A DNA stretch of 64,000 bases, taken from the NCBI GenBank assembly GCA_002839375.1, contig PGXY01000003.1, positions 405,863 through 469,862 of the forward strand, read 5' to 3'. The translations under genes and the position numbers were made by a program. This DNA is from Spirochaetae bacterium HGW-Spirochaetae-1 (GTDB taxonomy: Bacteria; Spirochaetota; UBA4802; UBA5550). Below the pieces are notes generated by a model. That model did not search any database and was not told the origin of the DNA. It saw only the letters and a program-made list of their open reading frames with translations. Below, piece by piece: positions 41,779 through 44,957 of the stretch (the stretch's first letter is position 1; every line of letters begins with the position of its first letter).

Positions 41779-42207
41779 CTATAGGTTATTGATAAAAGGT
41801 AAAAGTAAATTATTCAAGGTCTTTTTATTCTTTGTTTTATAAATGTAGTAATCAGAATCAATTGTAATTATTTCATTTATATTTGTCATTTCAGCGATTA
41901 TAATCAGAGATGAGTCTGCGAGATCCATTGGGACATCAGAATACTTTTTCGATAGTTGGATTATCCTTTCAAGGTGGTTGTTTTCTAAATTAATAATAGT
42001 AATTGCTTCCCGTTTTAGCCATTCTAAAAAATCAATCTGAACATTTATATTAAAGCTCAATAAATGTGTAACTTCAGTAATGACCGGCCAGGTTGTGATT
42101 AAGTGTCCTTTAAATTGTTTAAGAAATGAAACTACAGAAATATGATATTTGTCGTCCTTATCAAATAGGGCTATTAATGGACCAGCATCAACGAGAATGT
42201 TTTTCAC
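41779..42207 (-). CDS. PIN-domain toxin (VapC-like)
   Basis: A 142-residue PIN-fold RNase. ILVDAGPLIALFDKDD supplies the first acidic ligand, ITEVTHLL the second, MDLADSSLIIIAE the third and ITIDSDY the fourth, the usual set of PIN metal ligands. Its 5' end overlaps the antitoxin gene by 20 nt. VapC toxins cleave tRNA or rRNA. Base use is more AT-rich than most neighbours, hinting at acquisition. Confidence 0.88.
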   Translation of the reverse strand: MKNILVDAGPLIALFDKDDKYHISVVSFLKQFKGHLITTWPVITEVTHLLSFNINVQIDFLEWLKREAITIINLENNHLERIIQLSKKYSDVPMDLADSSLIIIAEMTNINEIITIDSDYYIYKTKNKKTLNNLLLPFINNL

Positions 42208-42436
42208 GTAATTTTCCTTTCAGAATATTTTTATAATTCTGTGACAAGCTTCCATCGCCACTGCCATATTTTCCGAAAAGGTCAGAACCTAAATCATACG
42301 GTGAATGTGTTTTCTGATAATCTTCGAAATATAGAACAAGAGCTCTTTTGACAATTTCAGATTTTGAAATCTTCTCATTTTTTGCGATTTGATTTAATTT
42401 GTCATCTAAGTCTGTAGATAGTCTTAAAGAAATCAT
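42188..42436 (-). CDS. ribbon-helix-helix antitoxin (VapB/CopG-like)
   Basis: An 82-residue protein. MISLRLSTDLDDKLNQIAKN forms the beta strand and first helix, and SKSEIVKRALVLYFEDYQ the second helix of an RHH DNA-binding domain. The C-terminal ~35 residues would wrap the toxin. It is followed by the overlapping PIN-domain gene. A 7-bp inverted repeat sits right before its start, so autoregulation is likely. Confidence 0.85.
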   Translation of the reverse strand: MISLRLSTDLDDKLNQIAKNEKISKSEIVKRALVLYFEDYQKTHSPYDLGSDLFGKYGSGDGSLSQNYKNILKGKLREKHSR

Positions 42437-42672: not shown

Positions 42673-42979
42673 GTGGCCATACCCGTGGATTCTTCCTCCG
42701 TTGCTGCGCCGTTGCTCCTCCATTCTTCCTCCGTTACTCCTCCCATGTTCCTGACATGATGCGTCCATGCTCTAACTATCACATTTCAAAGGTTGACCAG
42801 AAGTAGAAAAAATTTTAACCTCGGCAAGAAACGGAAAAATAATTTTAATTTTTATCATCCCGACGCGTATTAATAGCAAAGAGCATAACGGACCCGCACA
42901 GGGTTTTAAACATATAGCTCAGTCATTTATTCGATCTTTGAAAACAGGTATTTTTGATACACAAAATGGTGTGGTGAAA

Positions 42980-43302
42980 CAAATGCCACCCGAAAGCGAG
43001 GGCACGGATGTCCGAACGCGGTGGCTGCGGCCGACCCACAGGACGTGGGAAGTGCCGCGAAGGACATGGATGTCCGAGAGCGGCCGAGGACGGCACAGGA
43101 TGTGCCTCCGCAGGCCGCACAGGACGAGTTACCTGAAAGAGAGAGTCTCAAGCCCTTCGCGGCGTCTGAGCGAACGCGACCAACACGACGTTGGAAGTGC
43201 CGGCGAAGGCACGGATGCCGTGAGCCGGCCGGGGGTGGTGCAGGAGGGGCGCCGCGCTCGCGCCCCTTCTGCAAAGAGCCAAGTCCCGGCTCCACCGGGA
43301 CA
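42980..43302 (+). ncRNA. CsrB/RsmZ-like structured RNA with GGA-loop hairpins (putative CsrA sponge)
   Basis: Five or more hairpins present GGA in or beside the loop: GGGCA-CGGA-TGTCC (43000-43013, one G-U), CCCAC-AGGAC-GTGGG (43035-43049), GGACA-TGGA-TGTCC (43062-43075), GGCACA-GGA-TGTGCC (43092-43106) and GGCA-CGGA-TGCC (43208-43219). A sixth, CCAAC-ACGAC-GTTGG (43180-43194), lacks the GGA. Unpaired ACAGGACG stands at 43119-43126. Several are enclosed by outer stems: GCCACC/GGTGGC (42985-42990 with 43020-43025), GCCGC/GCGGC (43054-43058 with 43080-43084) and GCCGGC/GCCGGC (43199-43204 with 43224-43229). Repeat units at 43030-43095 and 43176-43235 differ by paired changes that keep the stems, i.e. 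covariation. The sites match the CsrA consensus (ACAnGGAnGU). A 14-bp stem (43239-43273) and GTCCCGG-CTCCA-CCGGGAC (43283-43301) close the 3' end. Open frames here have implausible protein composition. Strand is set by the GGA motifs; promoter not identified. Confidence 0.65.
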
Positions 43303-43337: not shown

Positions 43338-44957
43338 CTATTTCCCTGCCATGATGGCTTTCACATCATCGGCAACTGCCCCTACAGGTTTGATGTCGAA
43401 GTTCTCCACCAGAACCTTGGCCACGTTTGGCGAGAGGAATGCCGGCAGCGTGGGACCGAGCCTGATACCCTTTACTCCCAGGGCAAGCAGCGCCAGGAGC
43501 ACGGCCACGGCCTTCTGCTCGTACCAGGCGATATCATAGGAGATGGGAAGCTCGTTGATATCGGCCAGGCCGAAAACCTCTTTCAGCTTCAGGGCGATGA
43601 CGGCCAGCGAATAGGAGTCGTTGCACTGCCCGGCGTCGAGAACGCGCGGTATACCGCCGATGTCTCCCAGGTTCAGCTTGTTATACCGGTACTTGGCGCA
43701 TCCCGCCGTGAGGATGACCGTATCGGCGGGAAGTTCCTGCGCCACATCGGTGAAGTAGCTGCGTCCCTTCTGCCGGCCGTCACAGCCCGCCATAACAACG
43801 AATCGCTTGATGGCGCCGGACTTAACGGCCTCCACGACCTTGTCGGCCAGCTCCAAAACCTGGTGATGGGCGAACCCGCCGGTAATGCTTCCCTTCTCTA
43901 TCTCCACCGGGGCCTTGCAGGTCTTTGCCAGTTTTATAATTTCAGAAAAATCCTTGGCGCCGCCCGCTTTTCTTTCCGGGATGTGTTTCACGCCGGGATA
44001 TCCCGCCATGCCCGAGGTAAATATCCTGTCTTTATATGAATCCTTCACGGACACGATACAGTTCGTGGTCATGAGGATGGGCCCGTTGAAGGATTCGAAT
44101 TCCTCCTGCTGCTTCCACCATGAGCCGCCGTAGTTGCCCACAAAATGCTTATATTTTTTGAAAGTCGGATAGTAGTTCGCCGGGAGCATTTCGCCGTGAG
44201 TATAGACATCGACGCCCGTGCCTTCGGTCTGCTTCAGCAGTTCATCCATGTCCTTCAGATCATGTCCTGATATAAGAATTCCCGGATTGGCGCGCGTCCC
44301 GATATTGACGCTGGTGATCTCGGGATTGCCGTAGGTCGACGTATTGGCCTGATCCAGAAGCGCCATGGTCTTCACAGCCACATCACCGGCCTTTAACACC
44401 AGGGCCACCATTTCATCAGCAGTGAGGTCTTTCGTGGTTGAAGCAAGACCCTCAACAAGAAAAGCATCGATGGCGCTGTCCCGGTATCCCAGGACCTCGG
44501 CGTGATGCGCATAGGCGGCAATACCCTTGAGCCCGTAAACCAGGAGTTCCCGCAGCGAACGCACATCTTCGTTTTCCGTTGCAAGAACGCCCGTCGACAC
44601 GGCCTTTGCCCGGAACGCATCAATCCCGTTCCCGGACCATGAGGCTGCATCATGGGCGATAACTGCACCTCCGCCCTTCACGGCATCGCGAACCTTCAGG
44701 GCCTCGGTGATGAGCGATGCTATGCGCGCCTCATCAAAATTCGCATTGGTGATGGTGGTGAAAAGAGCGCCGCTGATAAATGATCCCACGGAGGCATCGG
44801 CCTTGCCCTCCTTTTCCGCGTACAGGGAAATTCCTTTCAGGGTATGGATGAGAAGGTCCATCAAATTTGCCGTATCGGCCGTCTTGCCGCATACGCCACG
44901 CACGGTGCATCCCTCGTTTTTCGCCGTTTCCTGGCATTGATAACAGAACATGCTCAT
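43338..44957 (-). CDS. hcp: hybrid-cluster protein (hydroxylamine/NO reductase)
   Basis: A 539-residue enzyme of nitrosative-stress defence that reduces NO or hydroxylamine with a 4Fe-2S-2O hybrid cluster. The N-terminus [20 protein letters not shown] gives the C-x2-C-x8-C-x5-C ligand set of class I (strict-anaerobe type) proteins. Later cluster ligands fall in VFTHGEMLP-like [64 protein letters not shown] and [24 protein letters not shown] gives a strong ribosome site for 44957. It is divergent from its probable regulator HcpR, with a box in the spacer. Confidence 0.97.

Follow-up and report, generated by a model that had tools for sequence, protein, structure and literature searches.

A dispersed, modular repeat with GGA-loop hairpins resembling CsrA sites in a spirochaete genome

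Introduction

A GC-rich non-coding stretch in the genome of Spirochaetae bacterium HGW-Spirochaetae-1 carries a series of hairpins with GGA in the loop, which raises the question of what kind of element holds them. The window is the whole stretch of DNA analysed here, 64,000 nucleotides of contig PGXY01000003.1 (positions 405,863 to 469,862), and coordinates refer to it. The original prediction, made from the sequence alone, read positions 42980-43302 as one RNA gene of the CsrB/RsmZ type that sequesters CsrA, and suggested that the neighbouring genes could tie it to stress.

Results

Hairpins and modules of the window copy

The element and its neighbours comprise the following features.

42980-43302, + strand: whole composite repeat copy, a mosaic of modules; blastn matches in its own genome are mostly partial modules
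42995-43019, + strand: hairpin of the 5' module, CGGA loop, GCGAGGGCACGGATGTCCGAACGC; the module recurs in other copies
43027-43118, + strand: cluster of three GGA hairpins; the layout is also predicted in Firmicutes copies
43035-43084, + strand: core two-hairpin unit, copy 1 (hp1, linker AAGT, hp2)
43092-43106, + strand: hp3, GGCAC-AGGAT-GTGCC, from the sequence and a comparison of own-genome copies
43118-43163, + strand: conserved module GAGTTACCTGA...GAGTCT...GCCCTTCGCGGC, recurring in about 14 own-genome copies
43180-43229, + strand: core two-hairpin unit, copy 2; covariance model R1 matches 43181-43229 (32.0 bits, E 2e-5)
43239-43273, + strand: long GC hairpin TGCAGGAGGGGCGC/GCGCCCCTTCTGCA, an inverted repeat; the module recurs in other copies
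43283-43302, + strand: terminal hairpin GTCCCGG-CTCCA-CCGGGAC, the 3' end of the module; other copies have it at their 3' ends too
43338-44957, - strand: prismane / hybrid-cluster protein gene, convergent with the GGA strand (Pfam Prismane, E 5.5e-176)
41779-42436, - strand: RHH antitoxin-like and PIN toxin-like genes (Pfam RHH_1 and PIN)

All of the predicted loops are located, within 43000-43229: five hairpins with GGA in the loop, one with CGA instead, and one unpaired GGA (near 43122). In the 5' module, GGGCA-CGGA-TGTCC forms a GGA-loop hairpin at 43002-43014. The three-hairpin cluster is closed by the stem GCGGCC/GGCCGC (43027-43032 / 43113-43118), which shows paired variation among own-genome copies. 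In copy 1 of the core unit, hp1 (43035-43049, CCCAC-AGGAC-GTGGG) presents the loop AGGAC, and hp2 (43054-43084) has a tandem-GA internal loop, GAA/GAGA, and the loop ATGGAT; the apical hairpin of hp2, GGACA-TGGA-TGTCC (43061-43075), lies within GCCGC/GCGGC. In copy 2, hp1 (43180-43194, CCAAC-ACGAC-GTTGG) has lost GGA and carries the CGA loop, and hp2 has the loop ACGGAT and the apical hairpin GGCA-CGGA-TGCC (43208-43219). The compensatory changes claimed between the two units are present: CCCAC/GTGGG becomes CCAAC/GTTGG, and GGACA/TGTCC becomes GGCA/TGCC. R1, a covariance model built from such units, matches copy 1 at 43036-43084 with 69.2 bits (E 3e-14), this copy being itself part of the model alignment.

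The + strand folds with -169.1 kcal/mol (z = -5.9), and 0 of 100 shuffles is equally stable. This bears out the claim of a structured element, as does the covariation of the stems in wider alignments. The - strand is also stably folded (z = -4.8). The window copy contains internal inverted repeats only, with no terminal inverted repeats bounding it. A coding repeat was rejected: the ORFs are mechanical, overlapping ones on both strands, and the stems covary. Upstream of the element, positions 42690-42760 hold short imperfect CTCCGTT/CTCCATT repeats, and similar CTCCGTAGATG repeats follow the element copy in locus L053.

The stretch is a copy of a dispersed, modular repeat

With the element as blastn query, the own genome (5.2 Mb, 14 contigs) yields 42 matches at E<=10, of which 23 reach E<=0.001. 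Most of them are partial, covering query modules 6-55, 101-184 and 251-323, alone or combined. The modules seen across about 20 regions are a 5' GGA hairpin that varies, a hairpin closed by the stem GCGGCC/GGCCGC, a GAGTTACCTGA...GCCCGTCGCGGC module, the long GC hairpin and the terminal GTCCCGG...CCGGGAC hairpin. Both the window and locus L055 carry the two-hairpin unit as an insertion at GCGGCC^GAGGA that is flanked on either side by GCGGCC. At the remaining paralogous junctions listed, the unit is missing and the sequence reads GCTGCGGCC-GAGGA or a close variant, that is, an empty site. Because the element is multicopy with an inserted unit, the two internal units of the window are repeat copies, and the covariation between them is covariation between repeat copies. 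The stretch is, with near certainty, a composite copy of a dispersed structured repeat. Outside the repeat, 464 kb of the genome show no excess of GGA hairpins.

A divergent form of the unit, resembling TwoAYGGAY, occurs in three copies in locus L054 of the own genome (contig C12:8500-11900). This contig also carries short ORFs, including nucleotidyltransferase-like and GIY-YIG-like ones identified by eye.

A dedicated sRNA gene of the CsrB/RsmZ type, about 320 nt long, would account for five GGA hairpins in one stretch, in a genome that has csrA, and for the promoter-like sequence TTGAAA-N18-CAAAAT at 42938-42967, just upstream of the element. However, the stretch is a multicopy mosaic, and the upstream regions differ among the own-genome copies. 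Promoter-like sites are at chance level (2 versus 1.2 by chance), and the + strand has no T-run terminator for the element. At gathering thresholds, the window matches no Rfam family, and at E<=10 it gives chance matches only; the CsrB and RsmX/Y/Z models match at neither threshold. In addition, the csrA-fliW pair described below suggests control by FliW. A dedicated gene is highly improbable, and this part of the original prediction gives way to one mosaic copy among many. The proposed tie to stress is likewise unsupported: the copies are not linked to stress genes.

The core two-hairpin unit is conserved across phyla

The core of the repeat is a 49-nt two-hairpin unit with the loop pattern C-A(N)GGA-Y-G. 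In hp1, a stem of 4-5 bp with a C-G closing pair presents the loop AGGAY or AYGGAY. A short linker, which ends in T and is usually RRT-like, leads to hp2, which consists of a 5-bp stem, the internal loop GRA/GAGA, a 4-bp stem and the loop AYGGAY. A literature search for the core sequence found nothing relevant.

Matches to R1, counted at E<=0.01, place the unit in 70 of 296 Spirochaetota genomes, with up to 20 matches among the 20 candidates scored per genome. In the Firmicutes class around Gracilibacter BRH_c7a, the unit is present in 49 of 83 genomes, with up to 59 copies in one closed genome. When one genome per species is scanned with the exact pattern, 34 stretches match; they lie in Spirochaetes, many Gammaproteobacteria (Sedimenticola, Woeseia and others), a Gracilibacter and a Rhodospirillaceae assembly. 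A viral, phage or plasmid origin was rejected, there being no matches for the exact pattern in viral contigs, for the element in phages or for the unit in plasmids.

The Firmicutes element is about 160 nt long and consists of an outer stem of about 20 bp, a second stem and, inside these, hp1, hp2 and hp3. Its hairpin loops are mostly GGA, its fold is about -80 kcal/mol, and 18 of 51 consensus pairs show double-sided changes. The window cluster at 43027-43118 can adopt the same three-hairpin layout.

The pairing of the unit is maintained while its sequence changes. In 23 aligned units, 98% of the cells are paired, with 51 double-sided changes; in 37 distinct Firmicutes units, 99.6% are paired, with 52 double-sided changes, in an alignment that was fitted to the model and so leans towards structure. 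None of 500 shuffles reaches the covariation score of either set, and pairing falls to about 45% or less when the structure is slid as a control. The C-G loop-closing pair is invariant in both alignments. In one own-genome variant, the outer stem is wholly replaced (GTCTGT/ACAGAC) and the internal loop and GGA loop are kept.

The loop of hp2 is nearly constant in its GGA. A scan on stems and tandem GA, with no rule for the loop, finds a GGA apical loop in 45 of 46 units, a sample partly biased by loci that were fetched with the GGA pattern. Loci derived from blastn agree, with varied loops (ATGGAT, ACGGAT, AAGGAT, AGGGAT, AGGAA and AGGAG). The neighbours and the size of the loop thus vary around a fixed GGA, as expected if GGA itself is read. 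In the 14 own-genome copies of hp3, the loops are GGA (7), CGA (6) and TGA (1), and the stems remain paired. Extra neighbouring hairpins show a weak GGA enrichment (p = 0.03). Among the core pairs, G-T occurs 8 times and A-C 0 times, a bias which suggests single-strand selection on the GGA strand. The outer stems of the Firmicutes element show no obvious bias of this kind.

Compensatory changes might also arise by replicative template-switch correction of quasi-palindromes, with no selection on RNA. Such upkeep is consistent with the outer arms of the Firmicutes element, which differ widely between copies and are still complementary. It cannot, however, explain why an unpaired GGA and an internal loop stay the same from phylum to phylum when the stems change, and we regard it as very unlikely.

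Copies lie in the context of a mobile or amplifying repeat

In the own genome, most copies have the 3' end of a convergent gene at a distance of 30-250 nt. Of 9 tandem cases there, read by eye from crude gene calls, 8 have the GGA strand antisense to the genes on either side; the pattern-matched set has 7 antisense and 4 sense cases. The Firmicutes sample has 22 sense and 10 antisense cases. The orientation of the element relative to genes is inconsistent.

The position near convergent 3' ends, together with the stable folding of both strands, would fit a BIME-like repeat with a cis role in termination or in mRNA 3'-end stability and with no specific protein partner. A role of this kind leaves the fixed GGA, the tandem GA and the bias of G-T over A-C unexplained, and the + strand is without a T-run terminator. 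We consider it quite unlikely.

Individual copies occupy diverse sites. In a Firmicutes rRNA operon (G364), the 16S-tRNA-23S spacer contains a unit in antisense orientation (locus L202:2937-2984, - strand); in G320 (locus L224), a unit begins after a similar AGTTTTCAAA sequence, perhaps likewise a spacer. In three gammaproteobacterial loci (L083, L098 and L093), units lie just 3' of tRNA genes and their terminators, with the tRNA 3'-end stretch repeated after the unit, and L083 holds a three-fold tandem array. A unit in G380 (locus L227:2992-3041, - strand) overlaps the 5' part of an apparent ORF shortly after the ATG. In G018, about a dozen near-identical MITE-like repeats of about 270 bp (L060-L071) carry the unit and have the ends GGGGTTGTCTAATAAG / ...TTTAGACAACCCC; a second element of this genome (locus L058) has the ends ACGGCAGAACGACATTCTC. 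Dense arrays of GGA hairpins in both orientations are found in G182 (loci L147 and L144), with about a dozen model matches within 6 kb in L147.

In G018 and G007, units lie inside elements with inverted ends of differing sequence. Taken as a whole, the context of the copies is the behaviour of a mobile or amplifying repeat.

REP hairpins are recognition structures for RAYT transposases. By analogy, the hairpins of the repeat, GGA included, might be ssDNA (or RNA) recognition sites of some mobility protein, CsrA being irrelevant. The inverted pairs, the arrays in two orientations and the copies inside inverted-end elements (G018, G007) argue for this, as do copies beside tRNA ends and terminators, in an rRNA spacer and over an ORF, and the lack of dependence on csrA shown below. 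In addition, the shape of hp2, a long hairpin with an internal loop, resembles long REPs (PMC6006769). Against it, the GT[AG]G foot is absent 5' of the hairpin, where the foot is NRRT-like, and in the own genome none of the five Y1 transposase genes has the unit at its flanks. Of 14 motif-rich genomes, 7 have no Y1_Tnp match, two of these 7 carrying about 20 copies, and only three weak-to-moderate R1 matches lie near the 33 Y1 loci scanned. A loop of variable size around a fixed GGA would also be unusual for a transposase site. A REP/RAYT system as such was rejected on the missing foot and the unflanked or missing Y1 genes; recognition by some other mobility protein is a doubtful but sizeable possibility.

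The loops match the consensus for CsrA

The own genome has, as the original prediction required, a csrA gene: there is one, with the MLVLARR and VHRKE segments intact, and a fliW-like ORF lies just upstream (FliW features seen by reading, not by profile). The CsrA SELEX consensus is RUACARGGAUGU, with GGA in a hairpin loop (PMC4347634). The loops of the element and their invariant C-G closing pair match this consensus, in agreement with the flanks predicted. For spirochaetes, CsrA of Leptospira biflexa is known to bind a GGA hexaloop, whereas the AAA mutant of that loop is not bound (PMC8668096). The same work mentions a candidate CsrA-related ncRNA in L. biflexa, which weakens the statement that no CsrB-type sponge is known in the phylum. 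From sequence, CsrA binding would be the most natural reading of the loops.

csrA is present in 14 of 16 motif-bearing genomes checked. In Spirochaetota, motif and csrA are not associated (Fisher p = 0.10 and 0.27). In the Firmicutes class, the motif occurs in 8 of 14 genomes without a csrA match and in 41 of 69 with csrA, many of the csrA-negative genomes looking like fragmented drafts. The association tests fail because csrA is so common. Six Firmicutes genomes (G328, G331, G340, G341, G342 and G348) have 3-4 csrA-like genes each, some of them adjacent.

The CsrA reading is weakened because the presence of the motif does not track csrA and because hp3 keeps GGA in only half of the own-genome copies. 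It is further weakened by the frequent antisense position of the GGA strand relative to both flanking genes and by one copy that is antisense in an rRNA spacer.

Discussion

The original prediction is partly supported: it has the right kind of loop and the wrong kind of gene. Our best explanation is a dispersed, structured repeat with hairpins that, once transcribed, are CsrA ligands. The dispersal is observed, as are the modularity, the covarying structure, the near-invariant GGA of hp2 and the presence of csrA; the statement as a whole stands at about an even chance. We infer transcription, CsrA binding, a physiological effect and the mechanism by which the repeat spreads. The repeat is BIME-like and modular, and in some relatives it sits in MITE-like elements. 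Its kernel is a conserved hairpin pair, often with a third hairpin, with loops presenting C-A(N)GGA-Y-G. Transcription of the GGA strand should make a CsrA site of every loop, and such sites in pairs would suit the CsrA dimer. The repeats would then act as scattered mobile CsrA decoys, or as portable CsrA sites within a host transcript.

A wider reading, which we put forward tentatively as possible rather than probable, is an undescribed superfamily of mobile CsrA-decoy RNAs, in which a GGA cassette of two or three hairpins rides on unrelated dispersed elements. Such a superfamily would span at least Spirochaetota, Gammaproteobacteria and Firmicutes. Its members would tap or titrate host CsrA and could bring neighbouring genes under CsrA control.

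Should CsrA bind the hairpins, a genome with tens of copies would hold a large, movable pool of CsrA sites. This pool would lie outside the gammaproteobacterial CsrB/RsmZ systems, in phyla whose main CsrA antagonist is believed to be FliW, and the binding would provide a function for TwoAYGGAY-like RNAs. Should CsrA not bind them, a near-invariant hairpin with GGA and tandem GA across phyla would point to an unknown mobility system.

Comparison with known systems

The element resembles CsrB, RsmX, RsmY and RsmZ in having several GGA-loop hairpins with the CsrA consensus. It differs from them in its many mosaic copies and its conserved tandem-GA hairpin, as well as in the Rfam and terminator searches given above.

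With REPs and BIMEs it shares short palindromic units, many intergenic copies, mosaics and alternating orientation. Canonical REPs have a GT[AG]G foot, long REPs are long hairpins with an internal loop, and REPs are species-specific (PMC6006769), whereas the sequence of the unit is conserved far more widely. In contrast to REP/RAYT (TnpA_REP) systems, the element has conserved GGA loops and neither the foot nor a linked Y1 transposase. The likeness to MITEs lies in G018 and G007, where the unit is within repeats of about 300 bp with inverted ends; however, these ends are not the same from genome to genome, the window copy lacks them, and the unit also occurs outside such elements.

Two RNA families come closest. 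Bacillaceae-1 RNA (RF01690), also a predicted CsrA ligand (PMC4333381), gives a weak match of 13 bits on the reverse strand, covering the same two hairpins; its cut-off is 35. TwoAYGGAY (RF01731), reported from gamma-Proteobacteria, Clostridiales and the human gut (PMC2864571) and likewise predicted to bind CsrA (PMC4333381), is the best Rfam match of one own-genome copy, in register over both hairpins, and gives no match in the gamma-proteobacterial or Firmicutes loci scanned. Its score of 18.5 bits is below the cut-off of 43, and membership of the unit in RF01731 was rejected; the layout nevertheless resembles the family. Both have two adjacent GGA-loop hairpins, a linker AG- and tandem GA in one stem (PMC4333381). 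The element described here differs in its shorter hairpins and in an hp1 loop that is usually AGGAY in the own genome, and is a dispersed repeat that reaches 59 copies per genome and extends to Spirochaetota.
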